From the NCBI RefSeq assembly GCF_030689645.1, contig NZ_JAUYFU010000032.1, forward strand, positions 1 to 35,102: DNA of 35,102 bases. Reading direction: 5' to 3'. The notes under the pieces are model-generated. The model did not search any database. It worked only from the letters and a program-made list of their open reading frames with translations, and was not told the origin of the DNA. This DNA comes from Humidesulfovibrio sp. (lineage in GTDB: Bacteria; Desulfobacterota; Desulfovibrionia; Desulfovibrionales; Desulfovibrionaceae). Every line of letters starts with the position of its first letter. Positions within the stretch are counted from its first letter, which is position 1. This document shows, in pieces, positions 10,595 to 29,015 of the stretch. Made by a program: the position numbers and the translations under genes.

Positions 10595-12850
10595 ATGAAG
10601 ACGCCAGAAAACGAACTCCAGCCCGGAGACTGGGCAAGGGACCTGCCGGACGGCAGCGTTTTTCGTGCGGCCTTCGAGTCCAGCCGGGCGGTTATGTTCC
10701 TCATCGACCCGGATACGGCGCGGGTCATCGGGGCCAACCAGGCCGCCTGCGAGTTCTACGGCTACCATCCTGACGAGGTGGACAAGGTCCACGCCTCGGC
10801 GGTGAGCCTCCTGTCCAGCGAACGCATCCGAGAGCTGATGCACAGCCTGAATTCCGGCGGAGCAACGCGTTTTGCCAGCCGCCACCGCCTGAAGTCCGGC
10901 CAGGTTCGCGACATGGAGCTGGACGCCTCGCCCATCACCCTGCGCAGCGGACGCTCCTGTCTGTTCTTCATCGGCTACGACGTCACCATGCGCAAGCAGG
11001 CCGAGCGCTCCCTGCGCCACAGCGAGGGCATCCTCCGGGCCATCCTCGCTTCCGCTGGAGACGGCATCGGCTACAAGGACGCCGAGGGCGTGTACCGCGA
11101 GGTGAACCCGGCCTTTTGCCGCATGGTGGGCCTGCCCTGCGAAGAAGTTCTGGGTCGCCGGGGCGATGATTTCTTTGACCGCCGCGCCGCAGCCCAGCAT
11201 GTGCGCATGGACCGGCGCACCGTGGACGAGCGGTCTCTCGTTTCCTATGAATTGACGCAGGAAACCCCATCGGGGCCGCGCTATCTGAGCGTGCTGAAGT
11301 CCCCGGTGTTCGATGCCATGGGTGAGAACCTTGGCGTGGTCTCCGTCAGCCATGACATCACCGAGCGGCGCAACGCCGAGGCGGCCCTGGCCAAAAGCGA
11401 GGGACTGCTGCGGGCCATGCTGCAATCCGCCCAGGACAGCATCTTCATCACTGACGTGAACGACATCCTGCGCGAGCTGAACCATGCCTTCTGCACACAC
11501 GTGGGCCGCCCGCGCGAGGATCTCTTGGGGCACCCGCTGTCTGATGTGTTCACGGGGGAGGAACTGCGCATCCAGCTTTCCACCAGCGCCTTGGCCCGCA
11601 AGACCCGCGAGCCCGTGAGCTTCGCCCAGCGCATGCAGCCCGCTGACCAGGAGTACTGGATCAGCGTGGTCAAGACCGCAGTGTTGGACCCCGAGGGCAA
11701 CTGCCTGGGCGTGGTGGGCATGGGCCGGGACATAACCGCCCAGCGTGCGATGGAACTGGCCCTGCGCCAAAGCGAACGGCGCTTGGCAGGGCTTATCCGC
11801 CAGGCTCCGGTGGGGGTGTTCGAAACCGATTCCAAGGGTATGCTCGTCTTCGCCAACGAGCGCATGCAGCGCCAGACCGGCCGCACCCTGGAGGCCTTGT
11901 CCGGCAACCGCTGGCTTGAGAGCATCGTCCGGGCGGACCGGGAGGATTTTCTGGCCCAGTGGCGCAAGGCCTTGGAGCAGAAGCTCGAGGTGGACCGGGA
12001 GGTTCGGATTCTGGACGCTCGCGGCCAAAGTCTCTGGGTCTCCTGCCGCATACGGCCCATGACCGATGCGGCCAACCGCTTCAGCGGGTACCTTGGCGTC
12101 TTGAGCGACATTTCCGACCGCAAGAAGGCCGAGGCCATGCGCGAGGACGTGGAGAGCGTGGTGCGACATGATCTCAAGAGCCCACTCGGCTCCATGCAGA
12201 ACGCAATGGAGCTGCTGGAGATCCTAGGCCCGCTGAATCAGGATCAGTCTCAGGTTCTCCACGAGGTGCGCACGCTGACCAAGCGCATGCAGGGGCTCAT
12301 CACCTTGTCGCTGGACCTGCACGCCATGGAGGCCGGGGTCTTCAAACCCGTGCTGGAGGCGGTGGACCTGTGCGATGTGGTGGAGACCCAGCGCGCAGAG
12401 CTGCGTCCACTGGTGGAGGGCAAGGGCCTGCGCATCACGCTGGTTTCGGATTGCCCGGAAGAGCCGTTCCACGTGCTTGGCGAGCGCAGACTTCTGGACG
12501 CCGTGTTCTCGAATCTGCTCAAGAACGCTGCCGAGGCCTCGCCGGAAGGCGAGGAAATCATCGTGCGCCTGGGGCTGGAAGATCCCTTGGCCGAGATATG
12601 CATCCGCAATTCGGGCGAGGTTCCCGCAGCCGTCCGCGACCGCTTCTTCGAAAAGTACGCCACTTCCGGCAAGACCCACGGCACGGGCCTGGGCACCTAT
12701 TCCGCGCGGCTCATGGTGCGCACCATGGGCGGCACCCTTTCGCTGCACACCGAGGAGCCCGGGCACACAAGCCTGATTCTTCGCCTGCCCGCAGCAAGCC
12801 CGAAGAAGATGAGCCTGCTCGTCCCCTCGCCCCGGATTCTTCCGACCTAG
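10595..12850 (+). CDS. Cytoplasmic sensor histidine kinase with four PAS domains
   Basis: 751 residues with no membrane segment or signal peptide. Four consecutive PAS modules (about 20-135, 137-262, 263-388, 389-510) each end in a typical linker such as DITERRNAEAAL or DISDRKKAEAM. The phospho-accepting helix is RHDLKSPLG with His525; this HD form replaces the common HELRTP. The ATPase domain has LLDAVFSNLLKNAAEAS (N box) and TGLGTYSARL (G box). No receiver domain is present and no response regulator is adjacent, so the partner is elsewhere. PAS ligands cannot be predicted; a small molecule or redox cue is likely for a soluble kinase. The stop shares CTAG with the converging Ehr operon. Confidence 0.92.
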   Translation: MKTPENELQPGDWARDLPDGSVFRAAFESSRAVMFLIDPDTARVIGANQAACEFYGYHPDEVDKVHASAVSLLSSERIRELMHSLNSGGATRFASRHRLKSGQVRDMELDASPITLRSGRSCLFFIGYDVTMRKQAERSLRHSEGILRAILASAGDGIGYKDAEGVYREVNPAFCRMVGLPCEEVLGRRGDDFFDRRAAAQHVRMDRRTVDERSLVSYELTQETPSGPRYLSVLKSPVFDAMGENLGVVSVSHDITERRNAEAALAKSEGLLRAMLQSAQDSIFITDVNDILRELNHAFCTHVGRPREDLLGHPLSDVFTGEELRIQLSTSALARKTREPVSFAQRMQPADQEYWISVVKTAVLDPEGNCLGVVGMGRDITAQRAMELALRQSERRLAGLIRQAPVGVFETDSKGMLVFANERMQRQTGRTLEALSGNRWLESIVRADREDFLAQWRKALEQKLEVDREVRILDARGQSLWVSCRIRPMTDAANRFSGYLGVLSDISDRKKAEAMREDVESVVRHDLKSPLGSMQNAMELLEILGPLNQDQSQVLHEVRTLTKRMQGLITLSLDLHAMEAGVFKPVLEAVDLCDVVETQRAELRPLVEGKGLRITLVSDCPEEPFHVLGERRLLDAVFSNLLKNAAEASPEGEEIIVRLGLEDPLAEICIRNSGEVPAAVRDRFFEKYATSGKTHGTGLGTYSARLMVRTMGGTLSLHTEEPGHTSLILRLPAASPKKMSLLVPSPRILPT

Positions 12851-13605
12851 CCTGTTTCCCCGCGTCCCAAAAGCCGCAGCAGCCCGTCCAGAATAGTCCA
12901 GGGATGGGGTGCGCACCCCGGAACAAAAAGATCCGCTGGAATGAACGCCGCGCCGCCGCCGTGCGCTTCCGCGTGGTCCGCGTAGGGTCCGCCGGAAATG
13001 GCGCAGGCCCCCACCGCAATGCCCACTCGGGGCTCTGGCGCGGCGAACCAGGTTTTCTCCAGGCCCAGGCGCATGTTTTCTGTAACCGGCCCGGTGAGCA
13101 GCACGCCATCGGCGTGGCGCGGCGAGGCCACGAACTGGATGCCGAAGCGGCCCAGGTCGAACACCAGGGTGCCCAGCACGTTGGTGTCCAGTTCGCAGGC
13201 GTTGCAGCCGCCAGCGCTCACCTGCCGGAGCTTGAGGGAACGCTTGAACAGCCGCAGGCGGTCCGGCGGCAGGGGCCGGGCCAGCTCCAAGGGCTGGCCG
13301 CGCAGGATGAGCGCCTCGCGGCTGCTGGCGGCCAGGCGGAACTCGCCCGTGAAGCGGATGGCCTGGCGCGGGCAGATTCTTGCGCAGTCCGTGCAGAACA
13401 GGCAGCGGCCCAGGTCCAGGGAAAGTCCGCTGGCAAGGTCGATGGCCGCTGTGGGGCAAGCCTCTACGCAGGCTCCGCAGCCGTCGCAGGCCGCCGGGTC
13501 TATGTCCGGCCTGCCGGGATAGCGGTCCGGCAGCTGGGGCATTTGCTTCGGGTAGGCCAGGGTGCGGCGCCCCTGGCGCAGGCGGGCGATGATGTGCTGT
13601 ATCAC
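12847..13605 (-). CDS. Ehr complex ferredoxin/small-subunit fusion (HyfH-HyfI/NuoI-NuoB-like)
   Basis: 252 residues joining two proteins that are usually separate. Residues 35-85 hold two 4Fe-4S motifs: Cys40/43/46/50 and Cys68/71/74/78, each CxxCxxCxxxCP. Residues 125-250 are a NuoB/hydrogenase small-subunit domain with all four ligands of the proximal cluster in place: GGCNACE (Cys134, Cys137), GACAISGG (Cys201) and VPGCAPHP (Cys231). It should carry electrons to or from the large subunit on the cytoplasmic face of the membrane complex. The start is GTG at 13605 behind AGGGGG, nine bases after the upstream stop. It is the last gene of the operon. Confidence 0.9.
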   Translation of the reverse strand: MIQHIIARLRQGRRTLAYPKQMPQLPDRYPGRPDIDPAACDGCGACVEACPTAAIDLASGLSLDLGRCLFCTDCARICPRQAIRFTGEFRLAASSREALILRGQPLELARPLPPDRLRLFKRSLKLRQVSAGGCNACELDTNVLGTLVFDLGRFGIQFVASPRHADGVLLTGPVTENMRLGLEKTWFAAPEPRVGIAVGACAISGGPYADHAEAHGGGAAFIPADLFVPGCAPHPWTILDGLLRLLGRGETG

Positions 13606-13614
13606 TGCCGCCCC

Positions 13615-15108
13615 CTAAAGGTCGTGTCCGCAGTAGGACAGGTTGAAGCTCTTGTTGCAGATGGGGAAGTCCGAGATTTGCTGGTTGCGCAGGGCCATGG
13701 AGAGCCCGGCCCAGTTGTGGAAGCTCGGGTCCACCACCTTGTAGGCCGCGAATCGTCCCGCGCTGTCCGTCAGGGCCACGTGGCAGATTTCGCCCCGCCA
13801 GCCTTCCACGAGGCTTACGGCCAGGTGCTCCGGGGCCAGGTTGCCCATCGAAGCCTGGAATCCGCCGCACGGGCCGGAGCCGGCGGGCAGGTGCGTCAGG
13901 TGCTCGGTCAGGAATTTTTCGGAGTGCAGCAGCTCCATGTGGCGCACAAAGGCCCGGCCCGCAACGTCGCCCGTCTGGCTCACGGCCACCGGGACGTGTG
14001 AGAAGGCGTACGCGCCCACGGGATAGTCCTGGCGCACGTCGATTTCCACGTCGCAGGCCCGCGCCGCCACGCCAACCAGCCCCAGGGCCAGGGCGTCCAC
14101 GCGGGATACGATCCCTGTGCGCTCGAAACGGGAGAGCACTGACGGCGTGCTCCAAAGAAGCTCGACAGCTTCAACGCAGTGCGGGAAGACCTCAGCCAGA
14201 TGCGCGCGCACGGCCTCGGCCCTGGCGTTATCCAGGTCAAAGCCCGTGCCGCCCGGCCTGATGAGTCCGCGCCCAAAGCGGCTGCCGCAGAGCTTGGCCG
14301 TCATGTTCAGGAAATCGCCGCGGATGCGCCCCAAAAACGAGGAGGTGGGCAGGAATCCCACATCAAGGGCCAGCGCACCCAGGTCGCCTGCGTGGTTGGC
14401 CAGGCGCTCCAGCTCAAGGGCCATGGCCCGCAGCACCAGCGCGCCCGCAGGAACCCGGCACCCGGACAGGGCCTCCAGGTTCTGGCAGGCCGCCAGGGTG
14501 TGGCCGATTGTCGTGTCGCCCGCCAGGGTCTGCATGTGTTGCAGAAAGCGTGGGCCGGGGCCGTTCACCAGGGCGCGCTCAATGCCCCGGTGCTGGTAGC
14601 CCAGCGAAATCTCCAGGTGCAGCACATCTTCGCCGTGGCACAGAAAGCGGAAGTGCCCAGGTTCTATGATGCCAGCATGCACCGGGCCCACGGCCACCTC
14701 GTGCCCGCCCTCGCCCAGGGCCTCCAGGAACCGCGCCTGGCCGATCTCTGGTCCGGCGATCGCTTCACCCAGCGGGTTGCGTGCGGGGAAGCGCACGGGC
14801 TTGAGCCAGGGGTGGCCCAGCGGCGTCACGCCCCAGGTTTCCCAGATCTCCCTTTCGAAAAGATGCGCCTGGGGGCAGTCCGGCGTCAGCGAGGGGTAGC
14901 CGTTGCCAGCCGGGGCGGAAAGGGCGTGCAGCACGCCCAGGCGATCCTCGGCCAGGATGGCGAAGAGCCGGAGCTCGCCGTTCACGGGCGCGCAGAACAG
15001 GGCCGAAAGCCTGGCCTCGTGCAGCACGGCCTCAAGCACCTCCACGCAGAACTCCTCAACCGGCAGCAGCGGGATGTGGCGGATGGGTATTGCCTGGGCG
15101 TTGCGCAC
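13615..15108 (-). CDS. Ehr complex large subunit (HyfG/HycE/NuoCD-like) without NiFe ligands
   Basis: 497 residues. An N-terminal NuoC-like domain (about 1-125, with REIWETWGVTPLGHPWLKP) is fused to a NuoD/hydrogenase large-subunit domain. In hydrogenases the first nickel-binding motif is CGxC; here the aligned stretch (HRGIERAL ... QTLAGDTTIGH) has Ala196 and Thr199 in place of the two cysteines. The C-terminal DPCxxC is replaced by SFNLSYCGHDL (487-497), where only Cys493 remains and it is out of register. It should therefore bind no NiFe centre and is not a hydrogenase. The GTG start at 15108 lies two bases after the HyfF-like stop behind a G-run. A quinone-like or other redox site is possible but unproven. 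Confidence 0.9.
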   Translation of the reverse strand: MRNAQAIPIRHIPLLPVEEFCVEVLEAVLHEARLSALFCAPVNGELRLFAILAEDRLGVLHALSAPAGNGYPSLTPDCPQAHLFEREIWETWGVTPLGHPWLKPVRFPARNPLGEAIAGPEIGQARFLEALGEGGHEVAVGPVHAGIIEPGHFRFLCHGEDVLHLEISLGYQHRGIERALVNGPGPRFLQHMQTLAGDTTIGHTLAACQNLEALSGCRVPAGALVLRAMALELERLANHAGDLGALALDVGFLPTSSFLGRIRGDFLNMTAKLCGSRFGRGLIRPGGTGFDLDNARAEAVRAHLAEVFPHCVEAVELLWSTPSVLSRFERTGIVSRVDALALGLVGVAARACDVEIDVRQDYPVGAYAFSHVPVAVSQTGDVAGRAFVRHMELLHSEKFLTEHLTHLPAGSGPCGGFQASMGNLAPEHLAVSLVEGWRGEICHVALTDSAGRFAAYKVVDPSFHNWAGLSMALRNQQISDFPICNKSFNLSYCGHDL

Positions 15109-15110
15109 GG

Positions 15111-16562
15111 CTAGAACCCCCCGGTGAGCCGCGCCGAGGCGGCCAGCACTGCGGCCAGGGGCGCGGGCTGGTACAGGCCCAGCAGCAGCGCCGCCAGGAG
15201 CAGGGCCAGGGGCGGCCAGGTGGCGCTCATCGGCTCTGGCCGGGCGGGGATGGTGTTTTCGCCCTGGGCCATGCGCAGGGCCGCTGTGGTGATTCCGATG
15301 AAAGCCATGGCCAGAAGCACCAGGAAAATGACGGCCAGGAAGGGGCGGTCCCCGGCCAGGGCTGCGCGCAAGATGGCAAGCTCGCTGACAAAGAGGCCGA
15401 AGGGCGGCATGCCGGTAAGGGCGAGCACCCCCGCCACCCACAGGGGGCCGGAAAAGGGCAGGGCGCGCACCGCGCCGCGCACTTCGGAAACGTTCTTGGT
15501 CATGTAGGCGGCCAACACGTTGCCGGCCAGCAGGAACATGGCGCCCTTGGCCGCGCCGTGGGCCAGCACGTGCATCAGGCTGCCGTGCATGCCCGCGCCG
15601 CCTATTCCCGCCCCAAAGGCCAGGATGCCCATGTGCTCCACGCTGGAATAGGCCAGCAGGCGCTTGTAGTCGGTCTGGCGCAGCAGGAACACCGCAGCCC
15701 AGGCCATGCTGGTGAGGCCCAGGAACACCAGCAGGTCGTTGCCGAACTGGGCCTGGCCCGCCGCCGCCAGCACCTGCCGCACGCGCAGGATGGCCAGGAA
15801 TGACACGTTGAGCAGACAAGTGCTCATGAGGGCCATAACCGAGGGCGACTCGCTGTATACGTCGGGCAGCCAGGTGTGCATGGGCGCAAGGCCCATTTTG
15901 GTTCCGTAGCCCACCAGCAGGAACACGAAGGCCGCTTTGAGCAGCACCGGGTCCAGGGTGGGGCCTGCGGCCATCAGGGCGTTCAGGTTCAGGGAGATCT
16001 CGCCGCCCCCGGCCAGGGCCAGCATATACGTGCCGAAGAGCGCCAGCGCGATGCCCACGGAGCAGAGCAGCAGGTACTTCCAGGTGGCCTCAAGGGACCG
16101 GTGGTGGCGGTGGAAGTAGATGAGCGGGGCCGAGGCCAGCGTCGTGGCCTCTACGCCCACCCACAAAAGGCCCAGGTTGCGCGCCATGCACACGAAGCTC
16201 ATGGCCGCCAGAAACAGCAGCAGGCAGCCGGTGAAGCGCGCCTCGGGCGAGTTCGAAAAGAGCCGTCCCTCGATCATGTCCGGCCTGGAGCCGCGCATCT
16301 CGCGCTCCAGGTAGCCTGCGGAGTAGAAGGCCGCAGCCAGGAACAGCACGCTGGTGATGAGCAGGAACAGCCGTCCGGGCTCGTCCAGCAAAAGCGCGCC
16401 GTCGAACATGGGCCGGGCGGGCGCCGCAAAAGCCGCCAGCGTAAGCAGCAGGTGCGCCACCGCCGCGCCCACCAGAAGCGCGCGCCGGGCGCGATGCTCC
16501 CGCAGCATGAAGGCGGCAGCGCCCGCAAGGGCCGGGACCAGGATTGTCAGCGCGCCGAGCAT
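15111..16562 (-). CDS. Ehr complex antiporter-like membrane subunit (HyfF/NuoN-M-like)
   Basis: 483 residues with about 13-14 predicted membrane helices. The key proton-path residues of the Mrp-antiporter/NuoLMN family are present: Glu138 in LLWVGVEATT and Lys222 in VGYGTKMGLAPMHTWLPD. The text KRLLAYSSVEHMGILAFG, typical of this group, follows. It would move protons or sodium ions across the membrane, driven by redox change in the peripheral arm. The ATG at 16562 lies five bases after the preceding stop. HyfB-like and HyfF-like proteins are distinct subunits of the complex. Confidence 0.93.
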   Translation of the reverse strand: MLGALTILVPALAGAAAFMLREHRARRALLVGAAVAHLLLTLAAFAAPARPMFDGALLLDEPGRLFLLITSVLFLAAAFYSAGYLEREMRGSRPDMIEGRLFSNSPEARFTGCLLLFLAAMSFVCMARNLGLLWVGVEATTLASAPLIYFHRHHRSLEATWKYLLLCSVGIALALFGTYMLALAGGGEISLNLNALMAAGPTLDPVLLKAAFVFLLVGYGTKMGLAPMHTWLPDVYSESPSVMALMSTCLLNVSFLAILRVRQVLAAAGQAQFGNDLLVFLGLTSMAWAAVFLLRQTDYKRLLAYSSVEHMGILAFGAGIGGAGMHGSLMHVLAHGAAKGAMFLLAGNVLAAYMTKNVSEVRGAVRALPFSGPLWVAGVLALTGMPPFGLFVSELAILRAALAGDRPFLAVIFLVLLAMAFIGITTAALRMAQGENTIPARPEPMSATWPPLALLLAALLLGLYQPAPLAAVLAASARLTGGF

Positions 16563-16567
16563 CCCCG

Positions 16568-17209
16568 CTATTCCTTCAAGGACGCCAGCCGTCCGGAGTC
16601 GATGTGGTCGAATTCGCGGTTGATGCGGAAGATGGCGATGCCCATGACGAACACGGCCACGAACACGTCCAGGAGGATGCCCATCTCCACCAGGAGTTGG
16701 GCCTTGCGCAGGGCCACGGCCCCGAAGGCGAAGATGCCGTTCTCAAGCACCAGGTAGGCCACTACTTGGCTCACTGCCTTGCGCCGGGTGACTATGCCGA
16801 AAAGTCCCACCAGAATGGTGAAGAAAGCCACTGGGATGAGCAGCTGGGGCACGCCCGGCCCGGGCAGGGGCATGCGTCCGCCCAGCCACACCGAGACGGC
16901 CAGGGCGGCCACGCCGAAGAGCAGCGAGCCGGAGTAGCTCACATAGGGCTCCACCTCGGCGCGCACATGGGCGCTCTCCAGGGAGCGGAAGAGCAGGGTG
17001 GGGAAGGCCCAGCCCTTGAGCAGGGCCGTTGCGGCAGAGATCGCAAGGGATGACCATGTCAGGTCGCCGTGGCCCAGGAGCGGCAGAAAGGCCAGGCCCA
17101 CGCCCTGAAAAGCCACCATGCGGATGCACAGGCCGATGCGGCTGGTGCCCAGGAGCACCAGGTTCGTCAGCACCAGGCCGACCAGGATGAATTCCACCAG
17201 CGAGAGCAT
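16568..17209 (-). CDS. Ehr complex membrane subunit (HyfE/NuoK-like)
   Basis: 213 residues, almost all hydrophobic, with six or seven predicted membrane helices. HyfE proteins carry a NuoK-like C-terminal half; here QVVAYLVLENGIFAFGAVAL has the glutamate within a helix that is typical of NuoK-like proteins. Length and position between the HyfC- and HyfF-like genes match the E. coli hyf order, except that hyfD is absent. ATG at 17209, seven bases after the upstream stop. Confidence 0.85.
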   Translation of the reverse strand: MLSLVEFILVGLVLTNLVLLGTSRIGLCIRMVAFQGVGLAFLPLLGHGDLTWSSLAISAATALLKGWAFPTLLFRSLESAHVRAEVEPYVSYSGSLLFGVAALAVSVWLGGRMPLPGPGVPQLLIPVAFFTILVGLFGIVTRRKAVSQVVAYLVLENGIFAFGAVALRKAQLLVEMGILLDVFVAVFVMGIAIFRINREFDHIDSGRLASLKE

Positions 17210-17216
17210 GTTTACG

Positions 17217-18152
17217 CTACCTCAGCAAAAGTATCAGCGCCAGGGCGGAAAGGGCGGTAGCGCCCACCAGCAGCCGGGGCACCAGCAAAAGGCGCAGGCG
17301 CGCCATGCTCGACTCCACAACGCCCATGACAAGGGCCAGGGCGAACACTCCCGCCACGCCCAGGGACACGTCCAGAAGCGGGTCGCCGCTGCGCACGGGC
17401 GCCAGCAGCCCGGCCAGCATGGCGCAGAGGGTCCACATCTTCACTCCCTGGCCGTAGAGAATGAAGGCCAGGTCCGGGCCGGAGTGGTCCAGCACCATGA
17501 CCTCGTGGATCATGGTCAACTCCAGGTGTGTGTTGGGGTCGTCCACCGGAATGCGGCAGGTTTCGGCCAGGAGCACCAGGAAAAGCGCCGTGCCCGTGAG
17601 GGCCAGCACCGGTCCTGCCGCCTCCCAGCGCACCATGTCGATGCGGGCCAGCATTTCGGACAGGGATAATGAGCCCGTGGCCTGGGCCAGGGCGGCGAGG
17701 CCGAGGATCTGCGCCAGCTCCGCAGGCACGGCGAACTGCATCTCGCGGCTGGCGCCCATGCCTTCGAAGCTGGAGCCGGTGTCCAGGGCGGCGGCTGCGG
17801 TGGCGAAGCGCCCCAGGGACAGGAGCCCGGCGAAAAGGAACAGGTCGCCCTCAAAGGAGAGCAGCCCCGGCATGCCGCCCAGGGGCGCCAGGCACAGGGC
17901 GGCCAGGGCGCAGGCCAGGCCCAGCAGCGGCCCCATGGGGAAGAGCCATGTGGTGGTCCGGCTGTACACCGCGCCCTTTTTGAGCAGCCGCGCCAGGTCG
18001 AAATAGGTTTGCAGCAGCGGCTGGCCCGTGCGGCCCGCGAACTTGGCCTTCACGCGGTTGATGACGCCGAACAAAAGCGGGCACAGGGCGAGGCCCAGGG
18101 CCGCGCGCGCCAGCGCACCCCAGTGGACCGCGTTATGGTCGACGAGCGGCAT
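17217..18152 (-). CDS. Ehr complex membrane subunit (HyfC/EchB/NuoH-like)
   Basis: 311 residues with about eight predicted membrane helices. It carries the signatures of this family: QTYFDLARLLKKG near residue 50, EGMGASREMQFAVPAELA in the middle, and ETCRIPVDDPNTHLELTMIH. This subunit links the redox arm to the antiporter-like subunits and is common to complex I and group 4 hydrogenases. The ATG at 18152 overlaps the HyfB-like stop by one base (TGATG) and is preferred over the adjacent GTG at 18155. Confidence 0.93.
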   Translation of the reverse strand: MPLVDHNAVHWGALARAALGLALCPLLFGVINRVKAKFAGRTGQPLLQTYFDLARLLKKGAVYSRTTTWLFPMGPLLGLACALAALCLAPLGGMPGLLSFEGDLFLFAGLLSLGRFATAAAALDTGSSFEGMGASREMQFAVPAELAQILGLAALAQATGSLSLSEMLARIDMVRWEAAGPVLALTGTALFLVLLAETCRIPVDDPNTHLELTMIHEVMVLDHSGPDLAFILYGQGVKMWTLCAMLAGLLAPVRSGDPLLDVSLGVAGVFALALVMGVVESSMARLRLLLVPRLLVGATALSALALILLLR

Positions 18153-20125
18153 CACCAGAGCCCCCAGGCCAGAAGCGCCACCAGGGTGGCGGCGATGTAG
18201 AGCACGTAAACGTGGACCTGCCCCTGCTGGAGCCGGTGCAGGGCCTCAAGCCGGGCGTCCATGAAGTTGAAGGCGGCCAGAAAGGCCGTGAGGACGCGGT
18301 CCTGGGTTTCAGCGAAGTAGCCGACGCGCACCGGGAACAGCCGCCAGGGCCGGGTTGCGCTGCCGGTGCTGCCCGTCAGGGACCGGAACATTTCGGACAG
18401 GGGCTGGGCGAAGGACGAGTAGGTGTACTGGATGCGCGCCGTGGGCGCGATGTAGCCGCAGTCCCAGGTGGGCCCGGTGCGCACGTCGCGGCCGCGCAAA
18501 AGCGTGCGGCGCAGCAGGAAAAGCCCGCCGAAGAGCGCCAGCAGCAGGGCGAAGACAAGAGAGGCCGTGGTCAGGCCGGTCACCAGCGGTGCGCCCAGCG
18601 CCTGTGCTCCGGGCAGGGCTGGCTCAAGCACGCCCAAGGCCGTGTTGAGCAAGAGCGGCGCGCAAAGGCCCATCAGCGGGGCCAGGCAGGCCAGGAAGAT
18701 CATGGGCCAGCGCATGAGAGCCGGAGCCTCGTGGGCGTTTTGCGCTGCCTGGCTGCGGGGCTCGCCCAGGAACACCGCCCCGAAGGCTCCCACGAATACC
18801 GCAGCGGCTATGCCCGCGCAGAGGATCAGCGCGGCCAGCGCGGCCAGGCTGGGAATGTCCAGGCTGCTGGTGGGCAGCAGCAGGCCCTTCATGGCGGCCA
18901 GGCCCAGCAACAGCTCGGAGGCGAACCCGCCCAGAGGCGGCAGGCCGCAGATGCCCAGGGAGGCCACCAGGAAGGCCGTTCCGGTGGCCGGCATGCGTTT
19001 GAGCAGGCCGCCCAGCTGGTCCATGCGCCGCTCGCCCGCGCCATGCAGCACGCTGCCCGCGCAGAAGAACAGCAGGGATTTGAACACTCCGTGGTTCACC
19101 ATGTGGATGAGGGCCGCGCTGAAGCCCAGCGCCGCCACCAGGGGCGCGTCGTGGGCCCGGCCCAGGGTCCCGAGGCCCAGGCCAAGGAGCATCAGCCCGG
19201 CGTTCTCCATGCTTGACCAGGCCAGCAGGCGCTTGATTTCGGCCTGGCTCAGGGCTCCGGCCACGCCGAGCACCGCCGTGCCGCCGCCCATGGCGATGAG
19301 GGTCCAGCCCCACCAGGGCTCGGGCTGGTAGGCCAGGAGCACGCGCAGAATGCCGTACACGCCGGTCTTGATCATGACGCCGGAAAGCACGGCGGATACA
19401 TGGCTGGGCGCGGCGGGATGCGCCTCGGGCAGCCACACGCCGAGGGGGGCCAGGCCGGCCTTTGATCCGAAGCCCACCAGCGCCAGAAGGAATATCAATC
19501 CGGCGGGATCGGCTCCGGGCAGCATGGTGACTGACGCGCCGGGAGCCAGGCCGTAGGCTGGCGGCCAGGAGGCTCCGGGCTGCAGGCACAGCGCCAGCAG
19601 AAAGGCCGCACCCAGGTGCGAGGCCACAAGGTAGATGCGCCCGGCCCGGCGCACAGAGCCGTCCCTGTCCTCCATGCAGACCAGGAAGTAGGAGGAAAGG
19701 GCCATTCCCTCCCAGAACAGCAGCAACAGCAGCGGGTCGCGCGCGGAGAACACGCCGGTGATCGAGGCTGCCAGAATGTTGTAGAAGAACCAGGGCGGGC
19801 CGGCGCGCTTGCGGCCCTCCATGTTCGCCAGGTAGCCGCGCCCGTACACCGCGCCCAGGCCCATAAGCCCCAGGGCAGGGGTGAGGAACAGGGCGGAGAT
19901 GCCGTCGAGGCCCAGCGCGCCCAATCCCCAGGGGGGAGGCCAGTACAGAATGAGTTCCCAGTCCTGCGGGCTGGCCAAGGCCTGCACGGCGGGAACCAGC
20001 CCCAGCAGGCAGCCCAGCGCCGCGAAGCCGGAGCCCAGGGCGTTGGCCGCGCGGAAAGAGCGAGGAAGAAGGGAGGCCAGGGCGCCCAGCAGAAAGGTCA
20101 GCAGACAGGCGGCGAAAAGCGTCAT
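18152..20125 (-). CDS. Ehr complex antiporter-like membrane subunit (HyfB/NuoL-like)
   Basis: 657 residues with about 15-16 predicted membrane helices. The proton-path residues are present: Glu139 (LLFWEGMALSSYFLV) and Lys222 (GFGSKAGLAPLGVWLPEAH). The C-terminal segment has the HyfB text TWDCGY, then RIQYTYSSFAQPLSEMFR. It is the largest ion-translocating subunit of the complex. The start ATG (20125) overlaps the stop of the HTH-EIIA gene by four bases (ATGA), so the two are probably translationally coupled. Confidence 0.93.
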   Translation of the reverse strand: MTLFAACLLTFLLGALASLLPRSFRAANALGSGFAALGCLLGLVPAVQALASPQDWELILYWPPPWGLGALGLDGISALFLTPALGLMGLGAVYGRGYLANMEGRKRAGPPWFFYNILAASITGVFSARDPLLLLLFWEGMALSSYFLVCMEDRDGSVRRAGRIYLVASHLGAAFLLALCLQPGASWPPAYGLAPGASVTMLPGADPAGLIFLLALVGFGSKAGLAPLGVWLPEAHPAAPSHVSAVLSGVMIKTGVYGILRVLLAYQPEPWWGWTLIAMGGGTAVLGVAGALSQAEIKRLLAWSSMENAGLMLLGLGLGTLGRAHDAPLVAALGFSAALIHMVNHGVFKSLLFFCAGSVLHGAGERRMDQLGGLLKRMPATGTAFLVASLGICGLPPLGGFASELLLGLAAMKGLLLPTSSLDIPSLAALAALILCAGIAAAVFVGAFGAVFLGEPRSQAAQNAHEAPALMRWPMIFLACLAPLMGLCAPLLLNTALGVLEPALPGAQALGAPLVTGLTTASLVFALLLALFGGLFLLRRTLLRGRDVRTGPTWDCGYIAPTARIQYTYSSFAQPLSEMFRSLTGSTGSATRPWRLFPVRVGYFAETQDRVLTAFLAAFNFMDARLEALHRLQQGQVHVYVLYIAATLVALLAWGLW

Positions 20126-20844
20126 GCGCGCCTCGTAGAGGGGCTGGACGCGGACTGGTGCAGGTGTTCGGCTGCTGCGGCGGAGTGCAGGATGGCGGCC
20201 TCGGGGGCGCGGGAAAGCACGGCCTGGCGGAAATCCGCGTCGCGCAGGGCGGCGGCGAGCAGCGCCAGAAGGGTGAGGTGCGCGCGCACCGTGGGCGAGG
20301 CCAGCACGAACAGAGCCTCCACGGGCCGTCCGTCCGGGGTGCGTACGGCGGTTTCCGGCAGGGGCGTGGCCGGGTGGATGAGCAGGATGCGCGGCGTATC
20401 GCCCAGGATCAGCGGGGCGCGCACATGGGGCACCAGCACCCCGCCGCCCACGGCGGTGACGCCGGTGGCCTCCCGCGCCAGCAGCATGGCCAGCACCAGT
20501 TGGCGATCAGCCTCCCCGGCCTCGGGCAGCATGCGCGCAACCCCGGCGCAGAGCACTTCCGGCAGGGTGGCGCCTGGCACGTCCGCGAGGATTCCGCCCG
20601 CCCGCAAGGCTCCGGCCAGGGCGGAAACCGCAGCGCAATGTCCGTCATGTTCGGGCTCAAGCTCGCAGGACAAGGCTGTTGATTCTATGCCGTGGTGGAT
20701 GGCCCACTCCATCAGCTCCGCGCGGTTGAAATGGTACAGCCCGCCTAGACGCACAGTGGGGAGTCCCGCGTGCGCTATCCAGCGCAGCACGGTCTTTTCG
20801 GTGCAGTTGAGGGAGGTCGCAGCCTCGCGCAGGGTGAGCCGCAT
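20122..20844 (-). CDS. HTH (excisionase/MerR-like) - PTS EIIA fusion, predicted regulator of the Ehr operon
   Basis: 240 residues. Residues 1-52 are a helix-turn-helix of the HTH_17/excisionase type (LTLREAATSLNCTEKTVLRW, then LYHFNRAELMEWA). Residues about 75-230 are a PTS EIIA type-2 (fructose/nitrogen-type) domain, with phospho-acceptor His140 in VGGGVLVPHVR and a second conserved His in LASPTVRAHLTLL. EIIA domains receive phosphate from HPr-type carriers. Fused to a DNA-binding domain, the protein probably acts as a phosphorylation-controlled regulator. No EIIB or EIIC is adjacent, so sugar uptake is unlikely. It is the first gene of the Ehr operon and overlaps the next by four bases; it probably controls this operon, but that is inferred from position. 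Confidence 0.85.
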   Translation of the reverse strand: MRLTLREAATSLNCTEKTVLRWIAHAGLPTVRLGGLYHFNRAELMEWAIHHGIESTALSCELEPEHDGHCAAVSALAGALRAGGILADVPGATLPEVLCAGVARMLPEAGEADRQLVLAMLLAREATGVTAVGGGVLVPHVRAPLILGDTPRILLIHPATPLPETAVRTPDGRPVEALFVLASPTVRAHLTLLALLAAALRDADFRQAVLSRAPEAAILHSAAAAEHLHQSASSPSTRRA

Positions 20845-24980: not shown

Positions 24981-25679
24981 TCAGGCTTGGGCGCGGGAGA
25001 GGTCCGTGATGGCGTTGTGGGCGGCGGCCTGCTCGGCCTTCTTAAGGCTTGGGCCCGTGGCGCGGAAGCGCTGGCCGTCGGGCAGCAGCACCTCCACCAC
25101 GAAGACCTTATGGTGTTCTGGTCCGCTTGAGTCCACGAGGCTGTACACCGGCCTTTCCCGGTAGGTATCCTGGGTCAGTTCCTGCAGACGGCTCTTGCAG
25201 TCCTTGCCGCCGGGCAGGGCCGGGCTTGCGGGCCACAGGGGATCCAAAAGCTTCAGCACAAGCGTTTGCGCCGCCTCGAAGCCGCCGTCCATGAACACCG
25301 CTCCGAAAAGCGCCTCCAGGGCGTCGGCCAGCAGGCTGTCGCGGCCGCGGCCACCTTGGGACTCCTCGCCGCGGCCCAGCAGCATGCGCTGGTCCAGGCC
25401 CAGGCTGCGCGCCACCCCGGCCAGGGTGCTGGTCTTCACCAGCCGCGAGCGCAGCTTGGTTAACAGGCCCTCGTCGGCATCGGGGAAGCGGCGGTAGGCT
25501 TCTTCGCTGACGCAGAGCTCAAGCACTGCGTCGCCCAGAAATTCCAGACGTTCGTTGGAGAGTTCCGGGCGGCCCTTCTCGTTTGCCCAGGAACTGTGCG
25601 CCAGAGCCAGCTCCAGCAGCTTGACTTGCTTGAAACGATAGTGGATATCATCCTGTACCGTCGTGAGATTCTCGTCCAC
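24981..25679 (-). CDS. rnc: Ribonuclease III
   Basis: 232 residues from the GTG at 25679. The catalytic domain carries the signature NERLEFLGDAVLEL and a second acidic cluster (DALEALFGAVFMDGG). The double-stranded RNA-binding domain fills the last 70 residues (CKSRLQELTQDTYRERPVY, LKKAEQAAAHNAI). RNase III processes rRNA precursors and structured mRNAs. An ATG at 25703 would add eight residues, but it directly abuts the start of the divergent gene and has only a weak site. The GTG has GGAGG five bases upstream, so it is preferred. No era or lepB gene is adjacent. Confidence 0.92.
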   Translation of the reverse strand: MDENLTTVQDDIHYRFKQVKLLELALAHSSWANEKGRPELSNERLEFLGDAVLELCVSEEAYRRFPDADEGLLTKLRSRLVKTSTLAGVARSLGLDQRMLLGRGEESQGGRGRDSLLADALEALFGAVFMDGGFEAAQTLVLKLLDPLWPASPALPGGKDCKSRLQELTQDTYRERPVYSLVDSSGPEHHKVFVVEVLLPDGQRFRATGPSLKKAEQAAAHNAITDLSRAQA

Positions 25680-25703
25680 CCAGCCCTCCGGAAGGCCACC
25701 CAT

Positions 25704-27875
25704 ATGTCCCAAATCCAGTCCCTTGCCGCGCTTTTGTCCCCTGCTTCCGTGGCGGTGGTGGGGGCTTCGCGCAGCCGGTCCAAGGTGGGCGGCATGGTGT
25801 TGGCCAATCTTGTAGCCGCAGGGTACAGGGGGGGTGTCCATCCCGTCAATCCCGCCGCCGCCCTGGCAGGGGAGACTTTGGCAGGCCTGACGCCGCTGGC
25901 GTCCTCGGAAATGCTGCCGGAGGGCGTGGATCTGGCCGTGGTCTGCCTGCCGCGGGCGCAGGCCCTGGCCGAGGTTGAGGCCCTGGCTGCGCGCGGGGTG
26001 CGGGCGGCCATCGTGCTGGCGGCGGGCTTCCGCGAGACGGGCAGGCAAGGGTTTCTGGCCGAGCAGGAGCTCACGCGCATTGCGGAGCGTGCCGGGATGC
26101 TGCTTCTCGGCCCCAATTCCCTTGGCCTCATCAACACCGCATGCAACCTGAACGTGAGCTTTGCCGCTGGACACCCCAAGCCCGGCGGAGTGTCGTTTTT
26201 TTCCCAGTCCGGGGCCATGTGCGTTTCCGTGCTGGATTGGGCCATGAGCCTGGGCCTGGGCTTCGCCAAGTTCGTGAGCCTGGGCAACAAGGCCCGCCTG
26301 AATGAGGCCGACGTGCTGCGGGCCCTGGGCGACGACCCGGACACCAAGGTCATTCTTGGCTATTGCGAAAGCGTGGAGGACGGGCAGGAATTTCTGGCCG
26401 CCGCGCGCGAGGTGACTGCGAAAAAACCCGTGCTCATGCTCAAGGCCGGCATCACTCCGGCTGGGGCGCGGGCTGTTTCGGCCCACACGGGCTCGGCTTC
26501 CGGTTCGCCCGCCGCCTACCGCGCGGCCTTCCGCCAGGCGGGCATCGTTCATGTGGAGGAAATGGCCAGCCTCTTCGGCCTGGCAGAGGCCTTCGCCTCC
26601 CTGCCCCTGCCGGGCGGCCCCGGCCTGGCCATCCTGACCAACGCGGGCGGTCCGGGCGTTCTGGCGGCCGATGCCTGCGCGCGCACCAGCCTGACCCTGC
26701 CGCGCCCGGCTGCGGCGACCCTCGCCAGCCTGGGCGAGGTCCTGCCGGGGTTCGCGTCGCTGTACAATCCCGTGGATGCGTTGGGCGACGCCGGGGCCGC
26801 ACGCTACCGCTCGGCCCTGTCCATCCTTTTGTCCGACCCGCAGATCCACAGCCTGCTGGTGCTGCTTACGCCCACGGCCAAGTCCGAGCCGCTGAAAACC
26901 GCGCGCGCTGTCATCGAGGCCGCGAAAGGGCCGGACAATCCGCAGGCCAAGCCAGTGGCCGCGTGCTTCATGGGCGGGACCCTGGTGGCGCCTGCACGGG
27001 AGGCCCTTCTGGCGGCAAGCATTCCCTGCTACGATTTTCCAGAGGCTGCGGTGGAGGCGCTCTCCGCTCTGCATGACCAGCAGGTCTGGCTGCGGGGCCG
27101 CCCGGCGCCGCCCATGTCCTGCGAGGCCCAGGACGCCTGCGACGCCCCCTGGGACGACGAGGCCGTGGCCATCGTAGAAGCCGCCCACGCCCAGGGGTTG
27201 CTTGAGCTTGGCGGGGTGACGGCCCTGGAGGCCGCCCACGCGGCTGGGCTGCCCGTGCTCACCACCGGCCTTGCCCGCACCAGCCGCGAGGCCGTGCGCC
27301 TGGCCCGGGAGATCGGCCTGCCCGTGTCCCTGCGCCTGGCCGTGCGCGAGGGCGGGCCTGGAGCAGCCTTGGCGCTGCGCGAGAGCGAGGCCGCGCGCTT
27401 CGGTCTTCTCGCCGATGATGACGCGGTGCGCGGCGCATTTTTAGCCCTCACCAGCCGTGCGGCGCGCACAAGGCCGGACGCAAGCGTCACGGGTTGTCTG
27501 GTGCAGGCCGCTGCGGGAGCGCCGCGAAACGGGTTCGAGCTGGTGGCCGGCTTCACGCGGGATGCCCAGTTCGGGCCGCTTTTGTCCTTTGGCCTCGCGG
27601 GCGTCGGGTCCGAACTTTTGGGCGACGTGTCGTACCGGCTTGCGCCCTTGACCCCGGGGGATGCCCGCGAGATGCTGCGCGAGATGCGTTTTTATCCGCT
27701 TTTGCGCGGGGCCTGCGGCGGTGCGGTGGTGTCGCTTGCGGCGCTGGAGCGGCTGCTGCTGGCCGTTGCGCGCCTGGCGTTGCGCGCGCCAAGGCTGGCC
27801 GGGGCGCAGTTCGCGCCCGTGCTGGCCGGGCCAGAGGGCGTGTTCATCGCCGGGGCGCGGCTCACTTTGGGTTAG
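25704..27875 (+). CDS. Acyl-CoA synthetase (ADP-forming)-like protein with degenerate ATP-grasp domain
   Basis: 723 residues with the layout of fused alpha-beta ADP-forming acetyl-CoA synthetases: CoA-binding Rossmann domain (about 1-125, SVAVVGASRSRSKVGG), two succinyl-CoA-ligase-like domains (about 130-460), and ATP-grasp domain (490-723). His261 in SAHTGSASG corresponds to the phosphorylated histidine. The ATP-grasp half departs from the family: the LK...HKS..GGV stretch is missing (GLPVSLRLAVREGGPG at 538-553), and the metal-binding ExxxNP is replaced by GAQFAP (700-705). GGAAGG precedes the ATG. A phosphotransacetylase-like gene follows 51 bases downstream. It may be a regulator or protein acceptor rather than an energy-conserving enzyme. 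Confidence 0.82.
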   Translation: MSQIQSLAALLSPASVAVVGASRSRSKVGGMVLANLVAAGYRGGVHPVNPAAALAGETLAGLTPLASSEMLPEGVDLAVVCLPRAQALAEVEALAARGVRAAIVLAAGFRETGRQGFLAEQELTRIAERAGMLLLGPNSLGLINTACNLNVSFAAGHPKPGGVSFFSQSGAMCVSVLDWAMSLGLGFAKFVSLGNKARLNEADVLRALGDDPDTKVILGYCESVEDGQEFLAAAREVTAKKPVLMLKAGITPAGARAVSAHTGSASGSPAAYRAAFRQAGIVHVEEMASLFGLAEAFASLPLPGGPGLAILTNAGGPGVLAADACARTSLTLPRPAAATLASLGEVLPGFASLYNPVDALGDAGAARYRSALSILLSDPQIHSLLVLLTPTAKSEPLKTARAVIEAAKGPDNPQAKPVAACFMGGTLVAPAREALLAASIPCYDFPEAAVEALSALHDQQVWLRGRPAPPMSCEAQDACDAPWDDEAVAIVEAAHAQGLLELGGVTALEAAHAAGLPVLTTGLARTSREAVRLAREIGLPVSLRLAVREGGPGAALALRESEAARFGLLADDDAVRGAFLALTSRAARTRPDASVTGCLVQAAAGAPRNGFELVAGFTRDAQFGPLLSFGLAGVGSELLGDVSYRLAPLTPGDAREMLREMRFYPLLRGACGGAVVSLAALERLLLAVARLALRAPRLAGAQFAPVLAGPEGVFIAGARLTLG

Positions 27876-27926: not shown

Positions 27927-29015
27927 ATGCCCGGACTCTACATCGGCTCCACTTCCGGCTATTCCGGCAAGAACACAATCACCGTGGGCCTGGGCCTGGG
28001 CTTCCAGCAAGCCGGGCTCAAGGTGGGCTACATGAAGCCCGTGGGCGCCATGCCCCTGGAGACCGAGGCGGGGCTGGCCGACGAGGACGCGCTTTTTGTG
28101 CGCGCCGCCCTGGGGCTGGCCGAGGACCCGGCCCATACGCCAACGGCCATGACCCCTGTGGTGGTCACCCAGGATTTCAAGGTGGACGCCTTTGAGGGGC
28201 GGCTGCCCGGCGTGGCCGACGGCGGCCTGGTGGCGAACATCAAGAGCGCCTACGAGGGGCTGGCCAAGGGCCGCGACCTCATGCTGGTGGCTGGCAGCGG
28301 CAGCATGTATTCCGGCAAATATTCCGGGGTGGACGCCATCAGCGTGGTCAAGGCCCTGGGCATCCAGAGCGTGGTCATCGACCGCTTCGAGAAGGAGTTG
28401 AACTACGACCTGCTGCTGGTGCTGAAGGAGCAGCTGGGCGACAATCTTTCCGGCGTGATCCTGAACGACGTGCCCCCGCCGTTTCTGGAGGAGGTGTCGG
28501 GACACCTCGCGCCCTTCCTGGAGGCGCGCGGCATTCCGGTGCTGGGCATCCTCCCGCGCGACCCGCTCATGGGCTCCATCACCGTGGGGGACCTGGCCCA
28601 GCGCCTGGGCGGCAAGGTCATCAGCGCGCACCACCGCACCGACCGAGTGGTCTCGCAGTTCCTCATCGGCACCATGCAGGTGGAGAACTTCATGCTGCAC
28701 TTCCGCAAAAAGAAGAACGCCGCGGTCATCGTGGGCGGCGACCGCGCCGACGTGCAGCTTGTGGCCCTTGAGGGCGACTGCCCCTGCCTGGTGCTCACCG
28801 GCAACCTCTACCCCAACGACGTCATCCTCACGCGTTCCGAGGTTCTGGAGACGAGCATCATCATCGTGCGCGAGGATACCTTCACAGTGGCCAAGAAGAT
28901 GGAGAACCTGCTCACCCGCCACAAGATGCGCGACGCCGTGAAGGTGCGGCAGGGAGCGGAATTGGTTGCCAAGCACCTGCGCATGGACGTGCTGCGGCAG
29001 AGCCTTGGCCTATAG
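27927..29015 (+). CDS. Phosphotransacetylase-like protein (BioD-like P-loop plus DRTGG domain)
   Basis: 362 residues. The N-terminal half (1-215) is a dethiobiotin-synthetase-like P-loop domain with IGSTSGYSGKNTITVGLGLG (residues 6-25), followed by GYMKPVG. The C-terminal part (about 220-330) is a DRTGG domain like that in the N-terminal half of long phosphotransacetylases (ISAHHRTDRVVSQFLIG, VIVGGDRADVQLVAL). The catalytic phosphate acetyltransferase domain itself is absent, so it is probably not a Pta enzyme. GAAGGAGG precedes the ATG. Co-transcription with the acyl-CoA synthetase-like gene points to control or sensing of acetyl metabolism, an inference. Confidence 0.85.
   Translation: MPGLYIGSTSGYSGKNTITVGLGLGFQQAGLKVGYMKPVGAMPLETEAGLADEDALFVRAALGLAEDPAHTPTAMTPVVVTQDFKVDAFEGRLPGVADGGLVANIKSAYEGLAKGRDLMLVAGSGSMYSGKYSGVDAISVVKALGIQSVVIDRFEKELNYDLLLVLKEQLGDNLSGVILNDVPPPFLEEVSGHLAPFLEARGIPVLGILPRDPLMGSITVGDLAQRLGGKVISAHHRTDRVVSQFLIGTMQVENFMLHFRKKKNAAVIVGGDRADVQLVALEGDCPCLVLTGNLYPNDVILTRSEVLETSIIIVREDTFTVAKKMENLLTRHKMRDAVKVRQGAELVAKHLRMDVLRQSLGL

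Follow-up and report, generated by a model that had tools for sequence, protein, structure and literature searches.

Gene content of the locus

The window analyzed here, a 35-kb stretch (35,102 nucleotides) of the 3.19-Mb, 111-contig genome of a Humidesulfovibrio sp., carries an operon for an energy-converting hydrogenase-related (Ehr) complex. Seven consecutive genes on the minus strand, designated reg, B, C, E, F, L, and S, overlapped by 4 bases or were separated by gaps of at most 9 bases (Table 1). A sequence-only reading had placed six genes in the order hyfB-C-E-F-G-(HI) at 12847-20125, and Pfam and PRK profiles confirmed this order as B-C-E-F-L-S. The seventh gene, reg, did not appear in that reading; it overlaps the start of B by 4 bases (ATGA). 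A single operon was thereby found to encode group-4-type large and small subunits together with membrane subunits of the antiporter-like type. Chance was no concern, with single-subunit Pfam E-values as low as 4.4e-49; the weakest assignment was subunit E, for which both the Pfam match (1e-5, just under the cut-off) and the PRK11492 match fell short. EhrS consisted of a two-cluster ferredoxin domain joined to a NuoB/HyfI-type proximal-cluster domain. The start of L was the GTG at 15108, which is preceded by a G-rich stretch, and the codon at 15114 was CTA. Since this GTG is usable, L has 497 residues and the numbering of Ala196 and Thr199 is right. Among the matches listed, the nearest named relatives by large subunit were Desulfovibrio UBA6121 (90%), a Humidesulfovibrio metagenome-assembled genome (85%), and Desulfovibrionaceae CG1_02_65_16 (83%).

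Table 1. Ehr operon genes and other features of the window (positions in the window; aa, amino acids; PTS, phosphotransferase system)
Feature	Positions	Strand	Description
reg	20122..20844	minus	240 aa; HTH_17 and PTS EIIA type 2 domain (Pfam); first operon gene
B, HyfB-type antiporter subunit	18152..20125	minus	657 aa; PF00361; PRK06521 (hydrogenase 4 subunit B), E-value 2.6e-153, under curated cut-off
C, HyfC/NuoH-type membrane subunit	17217..18155	minus	312 aa; PF00146, E-value 1.6e-30
E, HyfE-type membrane subunit	16568..17209	minus	213 aa; PRK11492, E-value 3.1e-22, under curated cut-off
F, HyfF-type antiporter subunit	15111..16562	minus	483 aa; PF00361; PRK06458 (hydrogenase 4 subunit F), E-value 4.6e-97, under curated cut-off
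L, EhrL large subunit	13615..15108	minus	497 aa; PF00346/PF00329; 30-kDa and 49-kDa fusion as in HyfG/HycE
S, EhrS small subunit	12847..13605	minus	252 aa; Fer4 families and PF01058; HyfH-HyfI fusion
PAS-rich histidine kinase	10595..12850	plus	converges on S, 4-base overlap
Succinyl-CoA-ligase-like protein	25596..27875		also CoA-binding and ATP-grasp domains
DRTGG/AAA_26 protein	27927..29015		adjoins the preceding feature

No HyfA, HyfD, or NADH-module gene was present in the operon. NuoEFG was absent from the operon genes and the other window frames scanned, as was any hyp or protease gene from the window genes scanned. Elsewhere, the genome encoded an Ech-type large subunit with an intact DPCISC on contig C73, a NuoD-type protein on C34 with complex-I-like neighbours as judged by eye, further PF00374 matches on C99 and C22, and HypD.

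The large-subunit site and the two arms of the complex

L was aligned without gaps to E. coli HyfG and to the Ech-type large subunit and NuoD of its own genome. RVCGICGFAHS of HyfG was paired with TLAGDTTIGHT of L, and SLDPCYSCTDR with SFNLSYCGHDL; the four nickel-ligand Cys were replaced in this alignment by A196, T199, S491, and G494. A profile alignment of L to solved HycE gave the identical register at these positions. Both earlier claims about the site, that its two N-terminal ligands are replaced (Ala196, Thr199) and that the C-terminal DPCxxC is gone, were therefore upheld. The best solved match of L was HycE (7z0s_E, E-value 3e-65), and the predicted model gave a fold match with a Z score of 40.6 and a root-mean-square deviation of 2.4 over 468 aligned residues (model with two extra N-terminal residues). 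Foldseek and VIA searches with the L model confirmed the fold only. The mean predicted local distance difference test (pLDDT) score was 87.7, with values below 50 at 142-151, 170-172, and 484-497. In a read-through L-S fusion model of the homologue L066 (mean pLDDT 74.5), the loop and tail were still disordered.

Conservation was examined in the best 80 of at least 580 matches plus the window (81 loci); the L query applied to the loci was a 499-residue reading in which Met replaced the CTA-coded first residue. The large subunit was compared in 80 rows (the window and 79 others; L082, cut by a contig end, was dropped), and B, F, and S in the 68-78 rows left after proteins outside length limits were removed. 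G197, D198, S491, Y492, C493, G494, D496, and L497 were each invariant in all 80 large subunits, as was the C-terminal SYCG-x-DL. T199 was kept in 77 rows, with Ser in the remainder, and A196 in 73, with Cys in three. The conservation in these 80 rows suggests that the altered site of L has not decayed but functions with a new set of residues. Across 85 Ehr rows, 37 positions reached 95% conservation or more while differing from all six reference proteins. At 194, 459, and 497, Ehr has T, V, and L in place of Arg residues common to all six references, and the Ehr-specific gains among conserved positions included D198, D460, H464, C157, C274, C484, and C493.

It is possible, if doubtful, that a new cofactor, metal or organic, sits in the altered pocket, or that the substrate there is none of the acceptors known for the superfamily, which are H+, quinone, phenazine, and sulfur. 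In this sharper version of a replaced functional site, D198, S491, C493/C484, D460, and H464 would be the ligands. The Ehr-specific positions, the three lost Arg, and the gained Asp, His, and Cys residues point that way. A wider check of 13 Ehr rows, taken from loci of best matches only (L149 was lost to a motif filter), cut both ways: D198 and C484 were kept in all 13, but C493 was kept in eight and replaced by Ala or Ser in five, and H464 and D460 varied. There is therefore no simple universal ligand set.

The chance that the complex has remained a hydrogenase, in which nickel is coordinated in a different register or by other means, is next to negligible. The lone C493 lies one residue ahead of the last ligand position in 80/80 rows, Cys recurs at 196 in the three rows named above, and the window genome, which has HypD, is able to make the cofactor. 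Against this, the four-Cys set occurred in none of the Ehr rows seen, and six-subunit Ehr operons stood in four genomes in which HypD was not found (see below). The C-terminus of L, moreover, coincides with the end of a mature hydrogenase and has no HyfG-type extension, although Ech also has none.

The ferredoxin Cys of S (40, 43, 46, 50, 68, 71, 74, and 78) and its proximal-cluster Cys (134, 137, 201, and 231) were each conserved in 75-78 of 78 rows, including the window. These 12 residues agreed with the claim of a small subunit that has four cluster Cys and two ferredoxin clusters. In the membrane arm, E139, K222, and K253 of B were found in 67-68 of 68 rows and E138, K222, and K339 of F in 72-73 of 73, so that both antiporter-like subunits keep the Glu and Lys of what we take to be the ion path. 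From these kept residues, the complex is predicted to pump ions. With its antiporter-type subunits intact, it might instead be a redox-dead cation/proton antiporter that uses the electron arm as a scaffold only. This we consider very improbable, since the cluster Cys of S and the replaced site, both kept, would be needless in a scaffold.

Probable origin within hydrogenases and probable independence from the NiFe cofactor

A tree of 54 large subunits (IQ-TREE, 360 columns, ultrafast bootstrap) included 18 of the 85 Ehr rows and the 13 wider rows; L112 was left out. The Ehr clade had a support of 92, Ehr with its sister group 100, and these with HyfG/HycE 100. Placement of Ehr on the complex I side was rejected, at a cost of 129 log units and with p 0.0002 in the approximately unbiased (AU) test, for which constrained trees were built by fast search. 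The phylogeny, which the sequence-only reading had proposed as a check, thus put Ehr within the group 4 hydrogenases, beside HyfG/HycE, and the loss of the ligands therefore looks to lie within hydrogenases. These placements suggest that Ehr descends from group-4a-type [NiFe] hydrogenases.

The sister group (support 87) included two four-Cys proteins and L131. Of the four-Cys proteins, L130 and the gene of locus L042 (titled Myxococcales) are one and the same, and L136 is from the same phylum sample; both proteins had GPIHAGIIEPGHFRF and NKSF in common with Ehr. Unlike Ehr, they kept ERICGVCS and ELCYSCTDR (ELCYACTDR in L136), which makes it probable that they are true hydrogenases. A four-Cys EhrL is likewise reported for Desulfotomaculum ruminis in the available part of PMC3569383. 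On the Myxococcales contig (L042:673-2298), an Ehr operon follows immediately downstream of the four-Cys sister and its S, as if sister and operon were used together. L131 (G151:C633:1913-3382) is a third type of large subunit, with all four ligands replaced by SGFG and SFDLSYAGCDL. It possibly marks a second, separate loss of the nickel site; a single joint loss with Ehr was not rejected (AU p=0.25), L131 being one sequence.

Two further observations concern large subunits in the window's family. Six Ech-like proteins (L110, L111, L113, L115, L116, and L124) read ER(V/L)CSLCSN, in which the Gly of CGxC is changed to Ser, and have an intact DPCxSC. A second EhrL copy with stop codons lies at G094:C19:378482-379659, with an intact copy on the same contig.

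By sequence, fold, and tree, the closest characterized relatives are hydrogenase-4 and formate hydrogenlyase (HyfBCEFGHI and HycCDEFG; group 4a). The window complex differs from hydrogenase-4 in that it has no nickel ligands, no HyfA or HyfD, and no C-terminal extension, and in that HyfH and HyfI are fused. Complex I (NuoD/Nqo4) has its fold in common with L but lies on the other side of the tree, and its NADH module is not in the operon. A sulfur (polysulfide) reductase like the archaeal MBS complex appears improbable. MBS belongs to the same superfamily, and the host is from a family of sulfate reducers, judging from the nearest named relatives. Of the MBS/MBX type, MBS-L (6u8y_L) was a distant match to L only (E-value 3.8e-24); the search that gave it scored HycE, MbhL (4.9e-46), and Nqo4 (3.3e-44) far better. 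In addition, Ehr occurred in records titled Planctomycetota, Verrucomicrobia, Acidobacteria, and others, and the flanking frames examined held no conserved metabolic neighbour.

The Ehr family is already in print. It was first identified in Geobacter, with the ligands absent "in most cases" (PMC3569383). The available parts of PMC10284858 and PMC10432482 give its function as unknown, and there and in PMC6349859 what Ehr reduces is left open, in line with the earlier statement that Ehr is known as a group whose substrates are not established. In its subunit types, absent nickel ligands, and unresolved function, the window complex resembles Ehr of Geobacter sulfurreducens (e.g. GSU0739-0745) as described in parts of PMC3569383, PMC10284858, and PMC8691401. 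This likeness draws on printed descriptions and on locus L053. L053, titled Geobacteraceae, is of the same family (58% identity) and matches the window in its genes except that it has two B, whereas the window has one. Two B-type antiporter subunits were also seen in L079, L076, L082, and L075, and in L053 and L079 the two flank reg.

We surveyed 149 genomes of the window's family. Ehr was counted by hand as a large subunit of at least 48% identity, fragments included, and NiFe hydrogenases by a PF00374 match at 1e-30, a threshold that misses Ech-type enzymes. An Ehr-type large subunit was present in 48 genomes and a PF00374 match in 134. Ehr was equally frequent without the match (5/15) and with it (43/134), and therefore does not follow the distribution of NiFe hydrogenases. 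The five Ehr-bearing genomes without a match (G006, G008, G049, G063, and G070) were 100, 95, 74, 91, and 97% complete. HypD is needed for Hyp maturation of [NiFe] hydrogenase. We searched 10 genomes for it, including 7 of the 15 without a PF00374 match. HypD was found in none of the five and in neither of two genomes that had neither Ehr nor PF00374 (G034 and G011), and in all three with a PF00374 match (G000, G122, and G047). Its absence also covers the Ech-type enzymes that the PF00374 threshold misses. In the five genomes, Ehr therefore probably works without the NiFe cofactor.

All six Ehr subunits were encoded in four of these five genomes, and the locus of G049 was cut by a contig end. 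Their site motifs resembled that of the window: the first read AGDT or AGDS, the tail read SFNLSYCG-H/V-DL in the four with a tail, and Cys replaced P150 in three. By homology, these relatives strengthen the earlier claim that the acceptor is not hydrogen. In G006 and G070, EhrL was the only Complex1_49kDa protein found, whereas G008 and G063 had another.

Electron flow, acceptor, and regulation

Replaced nickel ligands, kept cluster and ion-path residues, and tree position together support the earlier view of an Ehr complex that is not a hydrogenase. We consider it likely, with a probability of about 0.75 for the core mechanism and with the acceptor excluded, that the complex is a redox-driven ion pump derived from group-4a-type hydrogenases, in which the NiFe site was replaced by another functional site. 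Judging from the Cys of S, a low-potential ferredoxin-type donor would feed its two [4Fe-4S] clusters and then the proximal cluster. A small acceptor would be reduced in a pocket made of D198/T199, E149, and the S491-Y492-C493-G494-x-D-L tail, as conservation and sequence position suggest. Its reduction would drive ion pumping via C, E, F, and B, and the complex would make no H2.

The weakest step is the acceptor, for which menaquinone is our tentative first guess. The quinone reading draws on one kept Asp, on menA-like genes in both EhrL-only genomes, and on the lack of a conserved partner gene. By profile alignment, His38, Tyr87, and Asp139 of Nqo4, which we take to be quinone-site residues, correspond to I148, G197, and D249 of L, so that only the Asp is kept. 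A UbiA-family gene was found in 7/7 genomes tested, above the menA cut-off in G070 and menA-like but below it in G006, and menaquinone is therefore possible there.

Rather unlikely is a formate-linked complex, in which formate dehydrogenase (FDH) feeds S and the pump forms a short respiratory chain. Such an FDH-Ehr complex was proposed for lineages near Cyanobacteria (PMC6349859, available part), and in G. sulfurreducens the abundance of Ehr subunits was higher with formate than under conditions that contained hydrogen (PMC7894505, available part). The operon, though, holds no HycB/HyfA-type linker gene. Moreover, when 3805 flanking frames of the 81 loci were clustered and inspected by eye, no conserved partner gene was found in five or more loci beyond two families, a scattered histidine-kinase type (10 loci) and, at the S end, a frame of 111 residues (7 loci) that we took for frame noise. 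Many Ehr loci had short flanks, and the neighbour survey was not exhaustive. Co-occurrence with Rnf was uninformative, as RnfC matched at 1e-60 in 28/149 genomes and exceeded its curated cut-off in four.

Several points weigh against the proposed pump and its acceptor. The evidence for the complex as a whole is derived from sequence; the structure models have pLDDT below 50 in the loop and tail of the site; and an electron-donor gene was not found in the operon. The HypD argument runs by homology, from EhrL proteins 48-52% identical, and the window genome itself has HypD and NiFe hydrogenases. As to menaquinone, the equivalents of His38 and Tyr87 are lost, and the known quinone site is therefore absent. 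The UbiA evidence is weak, as UbiA proteins form a broad family and the gene of G006 falls under menA-type cut-offs, and the G. sulfurreducens proteomics in the part of PMC7894505 cited above tie Ehr to formate.

In 52 of the 63 assessable loci, the window among them, reg was found at most 6 kb upstream of C; it was missing in 11, and 18 of the 81 loci could not be judged. Its product combines an excisionase-type helix-turn-helix with an EIIA domain that has the motif P139-H140-x-R142 and H189. Both His were conserved in 48/48 proteins; presumably H140 is the phospho-acceptor-type His and H189 the second His, with roles as in EIIA proteins. Two EI-type (PF05524) proteins were found in the window genome. 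Where reg is present, the phosphorylation state of EIIA probably sets expression of the operon. Within the window's family, reg matches (1e-12) occurred in only 8/48 Ehr genomes of the 149-genome sample, all inside the ehr locus and three of them downstream of S, and 40/48 had no match. Unless diverged copies were missed, reg is therefore not general in the family, and none was seen in the locus stretches of the five HypD-less genomes. A search of publication titles, limited to titles, gave no link between reg and Ehr. Control of the operon by sigma-54 was rejected as a candidate, as the best sites upstream of reg beat shuffles (p<0.05) in 2/46 loci, with a value of 0.94 for the window.

Among the Ehr-locus flanks, close copies of the histidine kinase that converges on S (69-74% identity) occurred only in L005, L006, and L007, the three nearest relatives, and other matches had at most 33% identity. 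The succinyl-CoA-ligase-like protein and the DRTGG/AAA_26 protein may form an acetyl-CoA energy pair in the neighbourhood of the Ehr operon.

It may be, although we hold this as speculative, that catalysis of a new kind, with a cofactor or substrate of its own, now takes place in the former NiFe pocket. Ehr would then be a widespread redox-driven ion pump that, where genomes are small, can take the place of complex I as well as of hydrogenase, and that in many lineages is switched by PTS-type phosphorylation. The two EhrL-only genomes (1.5 and 2.0 Mb) provide a model of the natural test case to seek, and reg offers a handle on when the Ehr complex is used. Together, our results narrowed the question of the acceptor to a conserved site that is present in genomes without HypD found and that appears to have arisen inside hydrogenases.

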